DNA of 64,000 nucleotides. Source: Thioalkalivibrio sp. ALE14. GTDB lineage: Bacteria > Pseudomonadota > Gammaproteobacteria > Ectothiorhodospirales > Ectothiorhodospiraceae. Position numbers and translations under genes: made by a program. Below the pieces are notes generated by a model. That model had not been told where the DNA came from and made no database searches. It saw only the letters and a program-made list of their open reading frames with translations. Each line of letters begins with the position of its first letter. The stretch's first letter is position 1. The stretch lies in contig NZ_AQXY01000029.1 of assembly GCF_000376845.1 (NCBI RefSeq), positions 1-64,000 on the forward strand, given 5' to 3'. Below are positions 480 to 61,723 of the stretch, piece by piece.

Positions 480-763
480 AGGGAGACGCTGATTGAATCG
501 CGCGCTCGCGTTGATAACCCAGGTTTTCCGAGACCAGGCGCGTCGTGCAGCGGGTAGTGGTTCTACCCGCAAGCGGCGCAACGCAGGATCGGGGAACCTG
601 GGGTGCCAACCCCTACACGCTATTGAAAGCAAGGGCTCGGCCGCTTTTGTGCGCGCACGGCGTTGCGGCTCCCTTGTGCAGAATGCTGCACGGCAGTCGC
701 CGCGCCTTGTTCGCACGCAAAAGCGACTCGAGCGCGAACGTGCGATTCAATCAGCGTCTCCCT
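480..763. repeat. M-element copy 1 (MITE-like, TIR-bounded), inside the parDE operon
   Basis: A 284 bp element bounded by inverted termini of the form AGGGAGACGCTGATTGAAT. It contains small internal hairpins (a CGGGTAGTGGTTCTACCCG stem-loop and a GTGCAG/CTGCAC stem). Related copies are at 16366, 41010, 47418 and 61423; this copy has the same orientation as the one at 61423. It has no coding capacity of its own. It fills the gap between the parD stop and the parE start. No convincing target duplication is visible. Confidence 0.8.
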
Positions 764-1012: not shown

Positions 1013-1160
1013 AGCCTCAAAAACCTCCAACTTTCTTGGCAATCTTTGCCATAAAGACAATGATAGCCGTCCCGAACCCATTGTGCGACCGCACCCCCGG
1101 ATCCCGGCCCTTCCCTTCGCTGCGGCCGGAAGGACCGTTAACCTCCGGTGGCCCCGGACC

Positions 1161-1323
1161 TGTAGGAGCCGAGCCCTCTCGGCGATTGGGGCGCCGGACA
1201 GGCCCGATCGCCCAGGGGGCTGGGCTCCTACACCGTCTGGTGGCTCCGGATCTGTAGGAACCGAGCCTCTCGGCGATTGGGGTGTTGGACAGGCCCGGTC
1301 GGCCAGAGGGCTGGGCTCCTACA
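1161..1323. repeat. REP1 array: two inverted REP pairs (BIME-like)
   Basis: Two units of about 72 bp (1161-1232 and 1253-1323). Each begins TGTAGGAGCCGAGCC(C)TCT and ends with the inverted relative GCTGGGCTCCTACA. Each end forms a short hairpin (GCCGAG/CTCGGC or GCCCAG/CTGGGC), and the two halves pair imperfectly with each other. The family recurs throughout 1-7,600 and surrounds RAYT1. Confidence 0.9.
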
Positions 1324-1352
1324 ATAGGGCGAGGCCCGCAATTGTTCGTTCT

Positions 1353-1631
1353 TTAAACCTTCCCCTGGCGATAGACCGTGTTGCGGTGGGCCACGCGGAC
1401 GACCAGCACCCGGAGCCGATCATCCTCAATCGATGCAATGACACGGTACGGGCCGATGCGGTAGCGCCAGTACTCGCCCAGTTCGCCCGAAAGCGATTTA
1501 CCCAGCCTGCGTGGGTCGTCAAGGGACGCGATCCGCTCGTTCAGGTACTCCAGAATCCGCCTGGCGGCCTGCTTGTCTAGCGCGCGGAGATCCTTTTCCA
1601 CGCGTTTATCGAACTCAATCGTCCAGCTCAA
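1353..1631 (-). CDS. RelE/ParE-superfamily toxin
   Basis: A 92-residue protein (MSWTIEFDKRVEKDLRALD... ending VRVAHRNTVYRQGKV). The family marks are the N-terminal beta strand, the RLGKSLSG-ELGEYWRYRIGPYR stretch and the final VxxxAHRxxVY motif of RelE/ParE toxins. RelE members cut mRNA on the ribosome; ParE members hit gyrase, and which applies here cannot be told from sequence. It overlaps the 3' end of the upstream antitoxin gene (1615-1839) by 17 bp, the normal coupled arrangement, and is probably controlled by the palindrome at 1860-1875. Confidence 0.88.
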   Translation of the reverse strand: MSWTIEFDKRVEKDLRALDKQAARRILEYLNERIASLDDPRRLGKSLSGELGEYWRYRIGPYRVIASIEDDRLRVLVVRVAHRNTVYRQGKV

Positions 1632-1839
1632 GTCGGCGTCTCATTTCATCCATGGAGACTGTCTCGCCGCTTCCCTTGCGGTGGTCGATCAGGCGCTGTT
1701 CGGCCAGGTAGATGTCTTCAAGGTCTTCCAGATGCTGCACGATCGCCTCGCGCGCATAGTAGCTCTTGCTTCGGCCGGTCGCCTTGGCCAGCGCATTGAG
1801 CCGCTCTTCCACATCTTCAGGTAGGCGCAAAGCCAGCAT
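1615..1839 (-). CDS. RelB/RHH-type antitoxin
   Basis: A 74-residue protein beginning MLALRLPEDVEERLNAL, with the GRSKSYYAREAI helix typical of ribbon-helix-helix antitoxins of RelE-type toxins. The ATG at 1839 follows GGAGG at 7 bp on the minus strand. It is the first gene of a two-gene operon with the toxin at 1353-1631. A perfect 7-bp-arm palindrome sits just upstream and is the likely operator for self-repression. The C-terminal tail (SMDEMRRRLELDD) is the acidic toxin-binding part by analogy. Confidence 0.88.
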   Translation of the reverse strand: MLALRLPEDVEERLNALAKATGRSKSYYAREAIVQHLEDLEDIYLAEQRLIDHRKGSGETVSMDEMRRRLELDD

Positions 1840-1859
1840 GGGGTGTCCTCCGGAGGTTT

Positions 1860-1875
1860 GCTATACAAGTATAGC
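1860..1875. promoter_or_regulatory. Palindrome upstream of the RelB-like antitoxin, likely operator
   Basis: GCTATACAAGTATAGC has 7-bp perfect arms around a 2-bp centre and lies 20 bp before the antitoxin start on the minus strand. Ribbon-helix-helix antitoxins bind such short palindromes over their own promoter. The TATAC stretch could also serve as the -10 region. Confidence 0.65.
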
Positions 1876-2001
1876 ACTGCGGTGGATTGCCAAGCCCAGC
1901 GGCCCTTTCCTCCGAGGCTCCGCGCCTTTCCTGCGCTTCGGCATCCCGGTTACTACACCGTGGTGTCCGGGCGGTCCGTTCACGTACGGTGGCTCCGAAC
2001 C

Positions 2002-2067
2002 TGTCGGAGCCGAGCCTCTCGGCGATGGGGCGTTGGTTAGGCCCCGTCGCCCGGAGGCTGGGACCCT
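2002..2067. repeat. Degenerate REP1 pair touching the sat/cysC stop codon
   Basis: One decayed REP1 unit (TGTCGGAGCCGAGCCTCTC ... CCCGGAGGCTGGGACCC). Its tail, normally GGCTCCTACA, has drifted and runs into the TAA stop of the next gene at 2068-2070. Confidence 0.75.
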
Positions 2068-3783
2068 TTACGGGTTGCGGATGAAGCCCATGGCTTCGAG
2101 CTTGAGCAGGATGCGGTGGGCGGCTTCGTCCGGGGCCATGTCGCGAGTATCGATGCGCAGCTCGGGGTGCTCGGGTTCCTCGTACGGGTCATTGATGCCG
2201 GTGAATTCCTTGATGAGGCCGGCGCGGGCCTTGGCGTAGAGGCCCTTGCGGTCGCGCGCTTCGCAGGTCTCCAGCGGGGTGGCGACGTGGATCTCCAGGA
2301 AGCCGCCGTGCTGCTCGATGCGTTCGCGCACGCGGCGGCGCATGTCGGTGTACGGGGCGATGGGGGCGCAGATGGCGCAACCGCCGTTCTTAGTGATCTC
2401 GCTGGCCACGTAGCCGATACGCTGGACGTTGATGTCGCGGTGTTCCCGGGAGAAGCCGAGCTCGCTGGAGAGCTCCTTGCGCACGATGTCGCCGTCCAGC
2501 AGCGTGACGGCGCGGCCGCCCAGTTCCATCAGCTTCACCCGCAGGGCGTTGGCCATGGTGGACTTGCCGGAACCGGAGAGCCCGGTGAAGAACACGGTAA
2601 AACCCTGCCGGTGGCGCGGCGGGAAGGTGCGCCGCAGCTCCTGGACCACCTCCGGGTAGGAGAACCACTCGGGGATCTCCAGGCCTTCGCGCAGCCGGCG
2701 GCAGAACTCGGGGTTGTCGAGGTTGAGGGTATGTTCGCCTTCGCGTACCTCGTTGGCCGGCACGAAATCGGCGCGGTCCTGCACATAGGTCGTCGCCTGA
2801 AACGGGACCATCTCGATGCCGATCTCGTCGGCGTGGCGCCGGATCAGTTCCTGTGCCTCGAAGGCGCCATAGAAGGTCTGGCCGTCGGGGCCCGGGTCGG
2901 GGCTGGCGTGGTCCTGACCAACGATCAGGTGTGTGCAGCCATAGTTGCGCCGGATGATGGCGTGCCACAGCGCCTCGCGCGGGCCGGCCATGCGCATGGC
3001 CAAGGGCAGGAGGCTGAGCTGGGTGGTCTGCTCCGGGGCCTGGCGCAGCACGTGCTCGTAGCAGCGCACGCGCACGAAGTGGTCCACATCCCCCGGTGCG
3101 GTTACGCCCACCGCGGGCTGAATCAGCAGGTTGGCCTCGGTCTCGCGCACGGCCCGGCGGGTGAGCTCCACCTGGGCGCGGTGCATGGGGTTGCGGGTCT
3201 GGAAGGCGACCACGCGGTTCCAGCCGAGCTTCTGGAAGTACTCGCGCAGCTCCGTGGGGCTGTAACGATAGTTGCGGAAATCGTGGTGGACCGGAGGCTC
3301 CAGACCGTGCAGTGTGCCGCCCAGATAGACGGGGCCCGTGCGATGCAGCAGCTCGTTGACACCCGGGTGCGCGGTATCGGTGGTGCCAAACACCTGTTCT
3401 GCCTCGCGCGTGTGATCGGGGGTCCAGCGATACTCCACGTCCATTACCGCGACGAGCATGCCCTCCGCGTCGCGCAGGGCGATGCGGCTGCCCTCCTCCA
3501 CCTGCTCGGCAAAGGCCTGGCTCACGCCCAGGGTGATCGGCATCGGCCAGAGCGTGCCGTCCGCCAGGCGCATGGTCTCCACCACGCTCTCGTAATCCGC
3601 GGGGCCCATGAAGCCGGTCAACGGCGAGAAGCCCCCGTTCAGCAGCAGCTCGACATCGCACGCCTGGCGCGGCGTCAGATCCCAGGGGAGGAAGTCCCGC
3701 GCCTGGGCCTTCAATTCCCCGGCGGCCGCCTCGTCGAGATAGCGATCACACAGCGTGCCGCCGTACGGTTCAATCAAATCCAT
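2068..3783 (-). CDS. Bifunctional sulfate adenylyltransferase / adenylylsulfate kinase
   Basis: A 571-residue cytoplasmic fusion. Residues about 1-385 are a homomeric ATP sulfurylase (Sat) domain that makes APS from sulfate and ATP; the QTRNPMHR active-site motif is at 195-202 and HAIIRRNYG near 274. Residues about 393-571 are an APS kinase (CysC) domain that phosphorylates APS to PAPS, with the P-loop GLSGSGKST at 401-409. Fused enzymes of this order are known in sulfur bacteria such as Thiobacillus and differ from the CysDN system of enteric bacteria. Assimilatory PAPS formation is the likely role; reverse action in sulfite oxidation cannot be excluded. No cysteine-pathway gene is adjacent; a CysZ protein lies at 22623. 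Confidence 0.95.
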   Translation of the reverse strand: MDLIEPYGGTLCDRYLDEAAAGELKAQARDFLPWDLTPRQACDVELLLNGGFSPLTGFMGPADYESVVETMRLADGTLWPMPITLGVSQAFAEQVEEGSRIALRDAEGMLVAVMDVEYRWTPDHTREAEQVFGTTDTAHPGVNELLHRTGPVYLGGTLHGLEPPVHHDFRNYRYSPTELREYFQKLGWNRVVAFQTRNPMHRAQVELTRRAVRETEANLLIQPAVGVTAPGDVDHFVRVRCYEHVLRQAPEQTTQLSLLPLAMRMAGPREALWHAIIRRNYGCTHLIVGQDHASPDPGPDGQTFYGAFEAQELIRRHADEIGIEMVPFQATTYVQDRADFVPANEVREGEHTLNLDNPEFCRRLREGLEIPEWFSYPEVVQELRRTFPPRHRQGFTVFFTGLSGSGKSTMANALRVKLMELGGRAVTLLDGDIVRKELSSELGFSREHRDINVQRIGYVASEITKNGGCAICAPIAPYTDMRRRVRERIEQHGGFLEIHVATPLETCEARDRKGLYAKARAGLIKEFTGINDPYEEPEHPELRIDTRDMAPDEAAHRILLKLEAMGFIRNP

Positions 3784-3860
3784 GAGGGTGTGGAGTCCAG
3801 TTGTTGCGTGCGTGCCCGGTATTCCGGGTGCGAAGCCACCCGATCGGGGGTACTGGTCAG

Positions 3861-4072
3861 GCCTGATCGCCCAGGGGGCTGGGCTCCTACATGACGTGGT
3901 GGCGCCGACCTGTAGGAGCCGAGCCCTCTCGGCGATTGGGGCGTTGGGCAGGCCCGATCGCCCAGGGGCTGGGCTCCTACAGCCGCTGTGGCCCCGAGAC
4001 CTGTAGGAGCCGAGCCCTCTCGGCGATTGGAGCGTTGGTTAGGCCAATCGCCCAGGGGGCTGGGCTCCTACA
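3861..4072. repeat. REP1 array: half unit plus two full pairs
   Basis: A tail half (3861-3892) followed by full inverted pairs at 3911-3981 and 4002-4072, with the same GTAGGAGCC heads and GGCTCCTAC tails as the other REP1 sites. It lies between the sat/cysC promoter side and the DUF2283 gene. Confidence 0.88.
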
Positions 4073-4148
4073 TCGCGTGGGGCTCGGAAATACGAACCGA
4101 GCCCCTGGCGACTATCTATTGGCATGCCGCTGAAGCGTTCCGGTGAGC

Positions 4149-4346
4149 TCAGGCTGCTTCCGATCGCAGGAGTGGCCAGGCGCCCTGCTTGGATGCTTCG
4201 AGAATGACGACTTCCACAATCGTTCCGTCTTCGGCATAGCTCACATGGGTGTTCCAGTCCTGTGAACACTCGCGTGTAATCGGCTTGTCCGACAGATGCA
4301 GGACGAGAATGTCGTCGGTTTCGTCATAGGTCGTGCGCATCGTCAC
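4149..4346 (-). CDS. DUF2283 family small protein
   Basis: A 65-residue protein with the DUF2283 signature YDETDDILVLHLSDKP and a GTIVEVVILEASKQ strand. The molecular role of DUF2283 is not settled; it is often found paired with DUF4258 proteins. Its ATG overlaps the stop of the DUF4258 gene by 4 bp (ATGA), so the two are translationally coupled. The arrangement is toxin-antitoxin-like, but that role is inference. Confidence 0.75.
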   Translation of the reverse strand: MTMRTTYDETDDILVLHLSDKPITRECSQDWNTHVSYAEDGTIVEVVILEASKQGAWPLLRSEAA

Positions 4347-4597
4347 TCTCCCCAGTCAAAGTGGTGCATGACGGTTTTGACTACCAATTGCTCTTCGAGC
4401 ACCAAAGCGGCACAAATCAGGTTGTCGCAACGGCCTTCGAAGTGCTTCGCGGCCCACAAACGACTGTCATCCTTGTAGCGTAGCTCACCATTCTCCAGCA
4501 ACTGCACCAGCTCGCTTTCCGAGATTTCGCGCTGCGCCATCCGTTCTCGCGCATGGCGCGTAACGTGTATCGGTCGGTCGAATCGTTGGGAGTGCAT
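4343..4597 (-). CDS. DUF4258 family protein, probable partner of DUF2283
   Basis: An 84-residue protein with HVTRHARERMAQREISE, the conserved HA-RM-QR pattern of DUF4258, and the end VVKTVMHHFDWGE. DUF4258 has been linked to RelE-like folds, so a toxin role is possible but unproven. It is the first gene of a two-gene minus-strand operon with DUF2283. REP1 repeats flank the pair on both sides. Confidence 0.75.
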   Translation of the reverse strand: MHSQRFDRPIHVTRHARERMAQREISESELVQLLENGELRYKDDSRLWAAKHFEGRCDNLICAALVLEEQLVVKTVMHHFDWGE

Positions 4598-4660
4598 TCC
4601 TTTGCCCTTTTATCCGAATTCGGGTGGTCAGATCTCTGAGCGTTTGGGGGCATTGTCAGC

Positions 4661-4781
4661 ACCCGATCGCACAGGGGGATGGGCTCCTACACCCCCCGTG
4701 GCTCCGGACCCTGTAGGAGCCGAGCCCCCTCGGCGATTGCGGCGCCGGACAGGCCCGATCGCCCAGAGGCTGGGCTCCTAC
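4661..4781. repeat. REP1: decayed tail and one full pair, downstream of RAYT1
   Basis: A decayed tail at 4661-4691 and a full inverted pair at 4712-4781. The last base lies 2 bp from the RAYT1 stop codon (4784), so the transposase gene is tightly bracketed by its probable substrates. Confidence 0.85.
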
Positions 4782-4783
4782 GG

Positions 4784-5233
4784 TTATGGGGACAGCCAGA
4801 CGGCGTCCCAATGTGGGTAATCGCCGACATGGCGGACCAGGCCAGCGCGCAGGGGGTTGGCAACGATGTACCGGGCGGCGCCGGCGAGGTCCTCCTCGCG
4901 GCGAAGGGCTCGGTCGTGAAAACCCTTTTGCCATATTGGACGGCCCACGCGATGCGCGCTGACCGCCTTGACCCGCCGCATTACCCGGGATAATGAGTCC
5001 GGCTCTCCCAACTCCAGGAGCCAGTGCAGGTGATCAGGCATGATCACGTATGCCAGCGTCTTTGCGGTTTGCTGCTGCGCTTCGGACATCAGAGCACGCA
5101 CCACCGATCGAGCGGCCCACAAATCCCCGAACACGGGCTCCCGCTCAACGGTCACTGTGGTGACCAGATAAATCTGTCCAGGACAGGAATAGCGTCCCTT
5201 GCGCAGGGCATGTCCGCGAGGGTGGCCGTCCAT
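4784..5233 (-). CDS. REP-associated tyrosine transposase, RAYT1 (Y1/HUH family)
   Basis: A 149-residue protein of the Y1 transposase family (TnpA_REP type). The HUH metal motif is H68-L-H70 in MPDHLHW, and the likely catalytic tyrosine is Y122 in RYIVANPLRAGLV. These enzymes nick and rejoin single-stranded REP hairpins and are thought to spread REPs. The start at 5233 follows a GAGGAAGAGGAAAG purine run. REP1 pairs flank it directly on both sides (4712-4781 and 5261-5787), and each carries the GTAG tetranucleotide at the hairpin foot known from RAYT substrates. It is distinct from RAYT2 at 12172 but shares the WQKG(F/Y)HDRALRREEDL block. Confidence 0.92.
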   Translation of the reverse strand: MDGHPRGHALRKGRYSCPGQIYLVTTVTVEREPVFGDLWAARSVVRALMSEAQQQTAKTLAYVIMPDHLHWLLELGEPDSLSRVMRRVKAVSAHRVGRPIWQKGFHDRALRREEDLAGAARYIVANPLRAGLVRHVGDYPHWDAVWLSP

Positions 5234-5260
5234 GGCTTTCCTCTTCCTCTGAGATTTTCC

Positions 5261-5787
5261 TGTAGGAGCCGAGCCCTCTCGCCGATTGGGGCGTTGGACA
5301 GGCCCGATCGCCCAGGGGGCTGGGCTCCTGCACCGAGCGGTGGCCCCGGACCTGTAGGAGCCGAGCCCTCTCGGCGATTGGGGCGCTGGACATGCCCGAT
5401 CGCCCAGGGGCTGGGCTCCTACACCACTTGGTGCCCCTGGACCCGTAGGAGCCGAGCCTTTCGGCGATTGGGGTGTTGGTTAGGCCCGATCGCCCAGGGG
5501 GCTGGGCTCCTGCACCGCTTGGTGCCCCTGGACCCGTAGGAGCCGAGCCTCTCGGCGATTGGGGTGTTGGTTAGGCCCGTTCGCCCAGGGGGCTGGGCTC
5601 CTACACCACATGGTGGCCCCGACCTGTAGGAGCCGAGCCCTCTCGGCGATTGGGGCGTTGGATAGGCCCGATCGCCCAGGGGGCTGGGCTCCTACACCGC
5701 GCGGTGGCTCCGGACCTGTAGGAGCCGAGCCCTCTCGGCGATTGGGGCGCCGGACAGGCCCGATCGCCGAGAGGGCTGGGCTCCTGC
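5261..5787. repeat. REP1 tandem array: six inverted pairs with a 90-92 bp period
   Basis: Six full units start at 5261, 5353, 5444, 5535, 5625 and 5717. Each is about 70 bp of inverted REP pair followed by a related spacer of about 20 bp (CACNNNNGGTGSCYCYGGA-like). Because spacers repeat too, the block looks amplified as a tandem array rather than by six separate insertions. It begins 28 bp upstream of the RAYT1 start codon and runs into the 3' end of a decayed regulator gene. Confidence 0.92.
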
Positions 5788-5799
5788 GGGGTTGGTGGT

Positions 5800-5996
5800 T
5801 CGTCCGCTGGTTCGGTGCCCTGGAGCTCGGCGCGGAGTTGTTCGATCTCGGTCATCAGGGCTTTGTGTTCGGCGCGGATGGCGTAATGGGCCTCGCCCAC
5901 CGACAGGCCGGGCGCACGCGCGAGCTGGCGATGACTCATGTCCGAATCGCGCTCCAACAGGCGGAGCACTGCTAGATGAAGGTCTTCTTAATCCAT
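5800..5996 (-). pseudogene. Remnant of an EPS-associated MarR-family regulator
   Basis: On the minus strand the frame opens at an ATG at 5996 but reads M-D-stop, then continues EDLHLAVLRLLERDSDMSHRQ and later EHKALMTEIEQLRAELQ. The first part matches the N-terminal helix-turn-helix of EPS-associated MarR regulators and the last part their C-terminal coiled helix. The recognition-helix and wing region between them (about 50 residues) is missing, and the frame then runs into a REP1 unit. It sits at the end of the polysaccharide gene run, where such regulators are usually found. A stop at codon 3 plus an internal deletion make function unlikely. Confidence 0.6.
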
Positions 5997-5997
5997 G

Positions 5998-6013
5998 GGT
6001 TATCTTTATAACC
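5998..6013. promoter_or_regulatory. Perfect palindrome beside the decayed MarR gene
   Basis: GGTTATCTTTATAACC has 6-bp perfect arms and a 4-base centre and lies immediately before the start of the regulator remnant. It could be the old regulator's operator or a small hairpin. There is no other support. Confidence 0.3.
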
Positions 6014-6263
6014 GGGGGGCGCGCCTGGGCACGCTACCGCCGGGACGGTGCACCCGGATTTTCGCGGGTCCGCCTCGGCTGGAGCTTTGGCTGCATCTTT
6101 CGTTCACAGGATGAACGCGCTTGAGATTAGACCACAGCCGACCGCTAGCCAGCAACGAGACTCGCCGGCCCGTCGGGGGCCGCGTGCCTGCGCAAACGGG
6201 CAAAACATGCGGGAGTTCCTTCACGACAAGAGCCCCGAATGGGGAGTCGCATCGGACGTGTTG
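6014..6263. other. Intergenic, nothing recognised
   Basis: About 250 bp between the regulator remnant and wzz. It has no frame with family wording, no REP unit and no M-element. It may hold decayed sequence from the same locus. Confidence 0.4.
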
Positions 6264-7142
6264 TCAGCTTCCCTCGGAGCGGCGATTGCGGGCGTTGCTG
6301 ACAAACTCCCAGAAGAATGCCGCGAACAGTCCGAGCATGCCCCCGAGGACCACGGACAAGGCGACAATGAGCGAGCGACCAGGACCGACCGGGCTATCGG
6401 ACTCTTTCGCGAGGAAAGTTCCTTCCATCCCCCGGCTCATGGTTGCAATGGTTTCCGCATCGGACCTTGCATCGACACGGCGAGTGCGCAACTCGGCAAG
6501 CTCGCGCCGTGTATCGCTTATCCGCTGGGCCACAATCAGGCCGGCGACGTCGTCCCGCTCGCCGAGATGCTCGTTGAGCATATCGAGATCGCCCTGTAGC
6601 GACTCGATTTGCTGATCCAATAGCTCAATACGGTTTTCAAAAGGTCTCAGGCTGCTGGCCAGCATTTGTTCAAAACGCGGCTCGAGCCACTCGGACAAAG
6701 CCCTGATGACCCCCTCGTGGAGTTCCGACACATCGCCCGCCGCCTCGCGCGTGCTGGTGGACGTCAGGATCAGGCCGTAATCCGATCCATACTCACTCAC
6801 ACGAACATGGAGCGCGCGCCACTCCCCCGCCGAGAACGCATCGCGTTCCTGCGGGATCAGAACGTCTTCGAGCCTCGAGATCACCACATCCCGTGCTACG
6901 ACATCCATGACGCCATCGGAGTGCTCCTGAAGAGCTCCTTCCGAATAGACCCCCGGAAGACCCACCCCCGACCGGTATTCGTATTCCACCGGCTGCATCA
7001 CGGCGTAAACCACGCCCAGCACCACCGTAACCACCGCGACACCCATCAATACCGGCAACCGACGCATCAGCACGTCCCATAGTTCGTACAAGCTGATTTC
7101 GTCGTCGTACGGGCGGGTTTGTGGTCCGGCAGGGTCGCTCAT
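6264..7142 (-). CDS. Wzz-type polysaccharide chain-length determinant
   Basis: A 292-residue inner-membrane protein. It has a cytoplasmic N-terminus with ISLYELWDVLMRR, a first membrane segment at about 29-49, a long periplasmic coiled-coil region rich in E/L/R (about 160-235), and a second membrane segment at about 260-283. This is the two-membrane-helix plan of Wzz/chain-length proteins, which set O-antigen or exopolysaccharide length. The short cytoplasmic tail has no tyrosine-kinase domain, so it is the kinase-free type. The start at 7142 follows AGGAAA on the minus strand. It lies downstream of ugd in the same direction, separated by REP1 repeats. Confidence 0.85.
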   Translation of the reverse strand: MSDPAGPQTRPYDDEISLYELWDVLMRRLPVLMGVAVVTVVLGVVYAVMQPVEYEYRSGVGLPGVYSEGALQEHSDGVMDVVARDVVISRLEDVLIPQERDAFSAGEWRALHVRVSEYGSDYGLILTSTSTREAAGDVSELHEGVIRALSEWLEPRFEQMLASSLRPFENRIELLDQQIESLQGDLDMLNEHLGERDDVAGLIVAQRISDTRRELAELRTRRVDARSDAETIATMSRGMEGTFLAKESDSPVGPGRSLIVALSVVLGGMLGLFAAFFWEFVSNARNRRSEGS

Positions 7143-7421
7143 GAGTCGTTTCCTGTGTTCAGTTTCATTTGGCGCGTGTCAGCACCCAGGCGTCGGTGCT
7201 TTGGCAAACAGCTGCAACCCGCGTTTGCCGCTCCGACCTCGCTGGCGCATTGCGCCCCGGCCTTTCCCGGAGGAGCAGGCTCGAAGGCACGCCCCTGTGC
7301 CGACGATGGCGCGTGGCGATTGGATCGAAAACGAGGAGGCTTTGCAAGGCCGATGGTCTGCGCATCGGCTCAACCATAATCGACTCGATCGCAGGGCCGC
7401 GACGCATTTGGGTCTGCAATC
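7143..7421. other. Intergenic, nothing recognised
   Basis: About 280 bp between wzz and a REP1 array. Short open frames exist on both strands, but none has family wording or a convincing ribosome site. Any promoter for wzz would have to be here or upstream of ugd. Confidence 0.4.
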
Positions 7422-7580
7422 TGCAGGAGCCGAGCCTCTCGGCGACGGGGGAGCCGGAAAGGTCCGATCGCCCAGAGGCTGGGCTCCTACATCGTACGGG
7501 GCCCCGGATCTGTAGGAGCCGAGCCCTCTCGGCGATGGGGCGTTGGTTAAACCGAATCGCCCAGAGGCTGGGCTCCTACA
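7422..7580. repeat. REP1 array: two inverted pairs
   Basis: Units at 7422-7491 and 7511-7580 with the usual GAGCCGAGCC head and GGCTCCTAC(A) tail. They lie 24 bp past the ugd stop codon and could act as a transcript-end hairpin for ugd. Confidence 0.88.
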
Positions 7581-7604
7581 GGGGGTAGAGCGGCGCTGGT
7601 TGGC

Positions 7605-16365: not shown

Positions 16366-16664
16366 AGGGAAACGCTGATTAATGTACACGCTCGCGCTCG
16401 AGTCGCTTTTGCGTGCGAACAAGGCGCGGTGACCGCCGTGCAGTCATTCTGCACAAGGGAACCGCAACGCCGTGCGCGCGCAAAAGAGGCCGAGCCCCTT
16501 CTTTCATTAAATTGTGGGGTTGGTGCCCCAGGTTCCCCGATCCTGCGTTGCAGCCCGACTCAGTCAAAAACGGGCCGGTAGAACCGCTACCGGCTGCGCA
16601 CCGCGCCTCGTCTCGGAAAACCTGGGGTACCAACGCGAGTGTGTACATTAATCAGTGTTTCCCT
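16366..16664. repeat. M-element copy 2
   Basis: A 299 bp element that begins AGGGAAACGCTGATTAATG and ends with the inverse, CATTAATCAGTGTTTCCCT. Inside are the GTGCAGTCATTCTGCAC hairpin and an internal inverted repeat in which TTGGTGCCCCAGGTT pairs with AACCTGGGGTACCAA. It sits between smc and zipA and could separate their transcription. No coding content. Confidence 0.85.
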
Positions 16665-16692
16665 AGGGCCTCGCAATGACGGGGCGGTTCGC

Positions 16693-40779: not shown

Positions 40780-40954
40780 GTGTCTCCTTCCCGAGAGGTA
40801 TCCAGTAGCCGGGTGCAGGGTAGTCGTTTGCGGCGCCGGGCACATTCCGGGGCGCTCCGGATTGGCGCCAAGGGGGAACACATGCTATCGGCTGGGAAGA
40901 CATCCACCAATATGCTTGCACCCCGTCAGGGACAAGCCCCGCAAGGAGTTGCGC

Positions 40955-41397
40955 ATGGGAATCGAAGTCACCGGCATTCTGGGTCTGATCTGGCTGCTGA
41001 TCGTGATTTAGGGAAACACTGATCAATGCACACACTCGCGCTCGAGTCGCTTTTGCGTGCGAACAAGGCGTGGTGACTGCCGTGCAGTCATTCTGCACAA
41101 GGGAACCGCAACGCCGCGCGCAAAAGCGGCCGAGCCCCTTCGGGGTTGGCACCCCACGTTCCCCGATCCTACGTTGCGCCGCTTGCGGGTAGAACCACTA
41201 CCCGCTGCACGCCGCGCCTTGCCTCGGAAAACCTGGGGTGCCAACGCGAGTGTGTGCATTGATCAGTGTTTCCCTAAGCCATCGTGCGCACCGCGCAAAG
41301 CCCCGCAAGCCCCCTCGTTAAGGTGCTGTGGATCCTGATCCTGCTGTTCCTGCCGCTGCTGGGACTGATCGCCTGGCTGTTGCTGGGACCCAAATAG
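40955..41397 (+). pseudogene. PLDc_N-type small membrane protein split by an M-element
   Basis: The 5' part (40955-41009) encodes MGIEVTGILGLIWLLIVI and ends at a TAG formed at the element junction. After the element (41010-41275), the frame resumes at 41278 as AIVRTAQSPASPLVKVLWIL and runs to a stop at 41397 (ending LIAWLLLGPK). Joined, the halves give a complete two-helix protein of the PLD-nuclease N-terminal/immunity-like type of about 58 residues. Joining the flanks exactly leaves TAA as the junction codon, so one base there is unresolved. AAGGAG precedes the ATG. The gene is surely disrupted. Confidence 0.82.
41010..41275. repeat. M-element copy 3, inside the PLDc_N-type gene
   Basis: 266 bp, the shortest copy. 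It begins AGGGAAACACTGATCAATG and ends CATTGATCAGTGTTTCCCT; the termini are near-perfect inverses over about 31 bp. It holds the GTGCAGTCATTCTGCAC hairpin and a GGTAGAACCACTACC hairpin. It is the clearest case showing that this family inserts into genes. Confidence 0.9.
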
Positions 41398-47417: not shown

Positions 47418-47700
47418 GGGAAACACTGATCAATGTACGCTCTCGCGCTCGAGTCGCTTTTGCGTGCGAACAAGGCGCGGTGACCGCCGTGCAGTCATTC
47501 TGCACAAGGGAGCCGCAACGCCGTGCGCGCGCAAAAGCGGACGAGCCCCTGCTTTCAATAGCTCGTGGGGTTGGTACCCCTGGTTCCCCGATCCTGCGTT
47601 GCACCCCTTGCCGGTAGAACCACTACCGGCAAGGGGCCGCGCCTTGTCTCGGAAAACCTGGGGTACCAACGCGAGTGTGTACATTGATCAGTGTTTCCTT
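47418..47700. repeat. M-element copy 4
   Basis: 283 bp from GGGAAACACTGATCAATGTA to GATCAGTGTTTCCTT, same orientation as copies 2 and 3. It stands between the GGDEF-EAL gene and the DUF1249 gene, which converge on it. Its right end supplies the TAA stop of the DUF1249 gene. Confidence 0.87.
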
Positions 47701-48181
47701 AGTCGAGTGCGACCACCTGCGACTCCGCATCCGCCAGGAAGCGGTGCCCCTGGCGCAGGCAGTAGCGCAGCCACTTGTACAGGAAGCGATTGTGGCGCCA
47801 ACGACAGACCAGGCCCGGATGCCCGATCAGGATCTCCGGCTCGGCGCTGACGCCAATGGTGCGGCAGTGCAGCTCCAGCACCTCGGCCTGACGCGCGTCG
47901 TGGAACAGGCGCACGCGCATGTCCGGCTGTTCACGGTGCTCGCCGTGGTGATCGAAGCGGTAGGTCAGATGCAGCGTCGTGGTGTAGCGGGTGCGCTCCA
48001 GCACCTCCAGGTGCAGGTCCAGGGCACCGTCGACCCGCGAGACGGATCGCGGCGGCTGCCGCTCCAGATCGGGGCACAAACGGCGCAACGCGAGGTAGTT
48101 CTCCTCGTACATCTCCATCAGCGCCGCGAAGCTCTCGGGCCTAGGTTCCAGATGGGACGGGGTCTGACGCTCCAGCAACAT
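47699..48181 (-). CDS. DUF1249 family protein (YqiB-like)
   Basis: A 160-residue protein with the family blocks YEENYLALRRLCPDL, VLERTRYTTTLHLTYRF, DMRVRLFHDARQAEVLELH and NRFLYKWLRYCLRQGHRF. Function unknown; E. coli YqiB is the reference. Starts at 48181, 48205 and 48229 are possible; the first keeps closest to the family N-terminus. The stop codon is formed from the end of M-element copy 4, so the last residues may differ from the original protein. Confidence 0.87.
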   Translation of the reverse strand: MLLERQTPSHLEPRPESFAALMEMYEENYLALRRLCPDLERQPPRSVSRVDGALDLHLEVLERTRYTTTLHLTYRFDHHGEHREQPDMRVRLFHDARQAEVLELHCRTIGVSAEPEILIGHPGLVCRWRHNRFLYKWLRYCLRQGHRFLADAESQVVALD

Positions 48182-61419: not shown

Positions 61420-61422
61420 CTT

Positions 61423-61723
61423 AGGGAAACACTGATCAATGTGCACACTCGCGTTGGCACCCCAGGTTGTCCGAGACAAGGCGCGTCGTGCGGCGGGTAG
61501 TGGTTCTACCCGCCCGTTTTTGATGGATTCTGGGCGCAACGCAGGATCGGGGAACCTGGGGCGCCAACCCCGAAGGGGCTCGGCCGCCCGTTGTTGATCA
61601 AAAACGGGCGTGGGAACTGCGTTGCGGCTCCCTTGTGCAGAATGACTGCACGGCAGTCACCGCGCCTTGTTCGCACGCAAAGGCGACTCGAGCGCGAGCG
61701 TGTACATTGATCAGTGTTTCCCT
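61423..61723. repeat. M-element copy 5, abutting IS481
   Basis: 301 bp, reverse orientation relative to copies 2-4. It begins AGGGAAACACTGATCAATG and ends CATTGATCAGTGTTTCCCT. It carries an extra inner palindrome pair (GCCCGTTTTTGAT ... ATCAAAAACGGGC) missing from copy 3. It lies 18 bp past the ndk stop codon. Confidence 0.9.

Follow-up and report, generated by a model that had tools for sequence, protein, structure and literature searches.

How did a gene for a small membrane protein of the PLDc_N type come to lie in two pieces around a repeat, and what has happened at this site since? We examined the question at positions 40955-41397 of the window, that is, the whole 64,000-nucleotide stretch of contig NZ_AQXY01000029.1 from Thioalkalivibrio sp. 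ALE14 (G000) that was analysed. A small non-coding mobile element, a MITE (M-element), sits in the middle of a 58-codon membrane-protein gene, and the gene is broken. The features of the locus are as follows.

40943..40948, plus strand: AAGGAG, likely ribosome-binding site of the original gene (sequence; a similar AAGGAG lies 5' of the intact orthologues)
40955..41008, plus strand: left half of the PLDc_N gene, 18 codons, MGIEVTGILGLIWLLIVI (sequence and intact orthologues)
41008..41011, unstranded: left copy of the target duplication, now TTAG (empty sites have CTGG; 4-bp rule from other empty sites)
41008..41039, unstranded: left terminal inverted repeat arm including the target-site duplicate (complementary to 41246-41277)
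41012..41273, plus strand: MITE, 262 bp, ends GGAAACACTGATCAATG...CATTGATCAGTGTTTCC (empty-site comparison and copy alignment)
41246..41277, unstranded: right terminal inverted repeat arm including the target-site duplicate (complementary to 41008-41039)
41274..41277, unstranded: right copy of the target duplication, now CTAA (empty-site comparison)
41278..41397, plus strand: right half of the PLDc_N gene, AIVRTAQSPASPLVKVLWILILLFLPLLGLIAWLLLGPK, 39 codons and a TAG stop (sequence and intact orthologues)

The left half begins with a start codon at 40955 and is followed directly by a TAG stop at 41009-41011, while the right half continues in the same register to its stop codon at 41395-41397. 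The earliest in-frame start in the right half is GTG at 41284, and inspection of the sequence before this codon revealed no ribosome-binding site. Direct joining of the halves gives MGIEVTGILGLIWLLIVI-stop-AIVRTAQSPASPLVKVLW..., in which codon 19 is TAA, as the first-pass annotation of this DNA had described. Once Trp is placed at the junction, the 58-amino-acid product of the two halves scores 37.4 bits against Pfam PLDc_N (PF13396), for which the cut-off (gathering score) is 23.3. The locus thus resembles the single-domain PLDc_N membrane proteins in that its joined product exceeds the Pfam cut-off, and differs from them in that the gene is interrupted in ALE14 and in Thioalkalivibrio sp. 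ALE31 (G004). The annotation's claim that the repeat splits a PLDc_N-type gene was borne out by these two in-frame pieces and their joined form.

The first orthologue search covered 24 other Thioalkalivibrio genomes, and 22 of them carry the gene in a single intact frame. Twelve of the intact orthologues align across all 58 residues with 72-98% identity, and the other ten, which are more distant, align over residues 3-58 with 59-64% identity. In strain AKL19 (G011) the junction reads ATC TGG GCC, and TGG was also present in the other relatives checked; the prediction of an uninterrupted frame of 58-60 codons with Tyr or Trp at this point was therefore correct, with 58 codons and Trp in relatives without the MITE. 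A DUF188 gene and a ParA/MinD-like ATPase gene, one on each side, are the same neighbours in the occupied and the near empty genomes. Among the relatives, only ALE31 has a divided gene, and there the same element lies between the pieces. Genome G007 gave no match to the PLDc_N gene and has nothing beside its DUF188 gene, and no second clear PLDc_N copy was found in the genome of ALE14 or ALE31. Because the gene is missing from G007 and no other clear copy occurs in these two genomes, it seems dispensable, and its loss is ordinary in kind and well documented.

Comparison of the occupied and empty sites makes it very probable that a non-autonomous IS5-type MITE inserted into one PLDc_N gene, a degree of confidence that applies to the insertion of such an element into a single gene and not to the order of the base changes discussed below. 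The comparison shows that the insertion, at codon 19 of the single-domain gene and most simply placed in the common ancestor of ALE14 and ALE31, duplicated 4 bp and inactivated the gene.

The empty-site comparison also set the limits of the element proper, which starts with GGAAAC and finishes with GTTTCC; its terminal inverted repeats comprise 32 complementary bp, target duplicates counted in. The ALE14 genome contains about 41 dispersed near-full-length copies with 76-100% identity, and five copies of this one family lie in the window (480-763, 16366-16665, 41012-41273, 47418-47701, and 61421-61723). Searches also located the MITE in 15 further Thioalkalivibrio genomes, and in none of 17 members of the family outside the genus or of 15 genomes from more distant parts of the class. 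Plasmid and phage collections gave no match to it, and the named records with the arm sequence, among the matches listed, all belong to Thioalkalivibrio. No family was obtained in an Rfam scan of the whole window. The two longest frames of the MITE have no Pfam match and are disrupted between copies by 4-, 14-, and 16-bp indels; it has no recognisable gene or transposase of its own. With inverted repeats, a YTAR duplication, no transposase, many copies, and a partner element, it is a non-coding MITE of the IS5 type. In a limited search of the literature on Thioalkalivibrio MITEs, which returned other repeats or topics, we did not find this family described. The window also has another, shorter kind of palindromic repeat, GTAGGAGCCGAGCC...GGCTGGGCTCCTAC, which occurs in clusters at 1067-7595 with a spacing of about 90 bp.

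The target duplication is exactly 4 bp at six empty sites (L004, L013, L017, L020, L029, and the PLDc_N site). Its consensus is CTAG (YTAR), the usual target being CTAG or TTAA, and many copies have degenerate duplicates; the same motif, YTAR, is duplicated by IS5 (PMC10359306). In most copies TA is central on both sides, which prompted us to consider a 2-bp TA duplication of the IS630-like kind. This was not preferred, because the outer bases follow the end type (CTAG/CTAG, TTAA/TTAA) and nonpalindromic direct repeats flank other copies (CTAA/CTAA, TTGA/TTGA). At L011, L017, L020, L029, and the PLDc_N site, relatives show TG or CA and not TA. A special rewriting of TG or CA to TA at insertion sites was rejected, because YTAR sites in ALE14 generally lack TA in relatives: 16 of 26 counted sites had it in none of the relatives compared (14 of 23 after removal of inter-locus overlaps).

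A candidate for the mover was found in the sister genomes G011 and G022, which carry an IS roughly 1.2 kb long that shares the 17-bp left end of the MITE (GGAAACACTGATCAATG) and has an IS5-family transposase (NF033581 at 322.8 bits; PF01609 and PF05598). One such IS is flanked by TAAG/TAAG, and a related IS stands at the start of ALE14 contig C30, cut by the contig end; none sharing the MITE ends was found in ALE31. Judging from the shared ends and the duplication, an IS5-family transposase of an IS with the same ends is the likely mover. The MITE has in common with ISs of the IS5 group a 4-bp YTAR-type duplication and ends starting with GG, and with the IS5-family IS of the genus the 17-bp left end. 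It differs from them in being only about 262-297 bp long, in having no transposase frame, and in sharing little beyond the ends. Comparable IS5-related MITEs of Porphyromonas gingivalis, namely BrickBuilt, MITE239, MITE464, and MITE700 (PMC4596501), are likewise short, multicopy, and devoid of a transposase, with ends matching IS5-family ISs, and long stem-loops are predicted for BrickBuilt. Sequence and host are different, and the duplication of the Thioalkalivibrio MITE is a regular 4 bp; moreover, BrickBuilt has minisatellite repeats, whereas the present MITE folds as a whole into one stem and two arms without them.

In ALE31, whose record L074 carries the same locus, the MITE occupies the identical position, to the base, and is flanked by the same TTAG...CTAA pair. 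A single insertion in an ancestor common to ALE14 and ALE31 accounts for this most simply, and such an insertion is not recent; the suggestion of a recent event in the first-pass annotation is not supported, the insertion being common to two genomes whose surrounding DNA is only about 84% identical. Several points count against this explanation. The flanking 4-mers are no longer identical; the locus tree joins ALE14 and ALE31 with weak support (62% bootstrap), ALE14, ALE31, and AKL19 being about equidistant over the region (84-85% identity); and the MITE differs by 4% between the two occupied genomes (96% identical, substitutions only) where the region differs by about 16%. Two independent insertions at the same base would agree with the 4 + 14 bp of loop sequence by which the same-site copies also differ, with the empty site in AKL19, which is about as close, and with a region more diverged than the MITEs. 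We nevertheless regard them as highly improbable, because, of 38 copies compared, the two at this site pair as sisters (support 0.943), the arm variant GCACACACTCGCG is common to both and absent from the other 36 aligned copies, the unusual TTAG...CTAA flanks occur in both, and loop inserts differ at other shared sites too. Passage of the occupied allele between the lineages through homologous recombination, instead of inheritance by descent, is unlikely but deserves more weight. It would explain why the MITE is so much more alike than its region and why the first 29 bp of the gene to its right are identical in the two genomes, but similarity on that side is back to background within about 30 bp, and at several other shared sites, too, the MITEs resemble each other more closely than the flanks do, so the PLDc_N site is not special in this respect. 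A single ancestral insertion thus remains our preferred reading.

Copies at shared sites (L001/L203, L010/L088, L009/L065, L106/L115, and others) usually differ by 2-7% in substitutions, even where the flanks differ by 10-20%, as if the MITE changed more slowly than its surroundings. The copy at 47418-47701 is absent from the matching place in ALE31 and AKL19, and for this reason is probably younger than that at 41012.

The description of both halves as still readable was accurate for ALE14 and not for ALE31, in which a 1-base insertion breaks the frame of the left half; the right half is open in both. Between the two genomes the right half shows 8.5 synonymous versus 4.5 nonsynonymous changes (binomial P about 0.005-0.02, from 13 changes in 39 codons and with a weak tree), and its amino-acid changes are fewer than neutral decay predicts. 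This synonymous excess would count against an ancestral insertion that inactivated the gene, and would fit either continued use or later spread of the occupied allele. Continued production of the right half as a small protein with one helix and 37-39 residues is improbable in our estimation: the frame open in both species and the excess of synonymous changes speak for it, and the lack of a visible ribosome-binding site before the start codon, the out-of-frame left half in ALE31, and the absence of the whole gene from G007 speak against it.

The base at the junction that did not fit a simple model is explained by the 4-bp duplication together with G-to-A changes of the TGG codon. The pre-insertion codon was TGG and the pre-insertion 4-mer CTGG, and the present duplicates are TTAG and CTAA; the site would have read ATC TGG GCC or something close to it. 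On the simplest path, TGG would first have changed to TAG, which would have created the preferred target CTAG; insertion would then have yielded CTAG...CTAG; and a single paired substitution in the outermost pair of the hairpin, with C becoming T on the left and G becoming A on the right, would have yielded TTAG...CTAA. This path takes three base changes, as compared with four for direct insertion into CTGG, and we favour a stop codon that preceded the insertion. The same event may, less probably, have run in the other order, with insertion straight into intact CTGG, no prior stop, and duplicates that changed later. By default one would assume a living gene at the site, and non-YTAR duplicates at a few copies (TTGA/TTGA at L021 and a CTGA pair at L010) indicate that TA is not strictly required; against this order stand the four changes, all of which would have to fall within the shared ancestor, and the central TA on both sides at most copies.

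On either strand the MITE is predicted to form a stem of at least 32 bp with a pair of long hairpin arms; the folding energy is about -177 kcal/mol, compared with about -99 to -106 kcal/mol for shuffles (z about -15). Across 38 MITE copies, 95.1% of cells pair, and 21 pairs (83 cells) are changed on both sides, against about 10 (25 cells) in shuffled and 2-9 (4-11 cells) in slid controls. Because one of these 38 copies supplied the structure, and because the copies are related to each other, the controls do not amount to probabilities. Clearly, the two arms of one copy change together. The annotation had set insertion against co-evolution; the insertion stands, but the opposition does not, since the arms of the copies also covary and neither excludes the other. 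Modular loop inserts of about 14-16 bp distinguish copies at shared sites. Three loops carry optional inserts of about 14-18 bp (alignment A1, 38 copies; columns 119-134, 155-170, and 211-225), and these vary from copy to copy, even where two species have a copy at one and the same site.

The clean pair of states before and after insertion helps to fix the exact ends and the duplication rule of an abundant Thioalkalivibrio repeat family, some copies of which are old enough to be common to different species. The covariation of the arms is the part of this family most worth following, and is testable as hairpin-templated mutation versus selection on structure. We tentatively suggest, as a possible but rather doubtful history, that TGG to TAG killed the gene first and made CTAG, and that arm-to-arm hairpin copying afterwards converted the direct duplication so that it lengthened the inverted repeat (TTAG...CTAA), by the same process that would match the arms of each copy. 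If this is true, the MITE family would be a natural record of hairpin-templated mutation.
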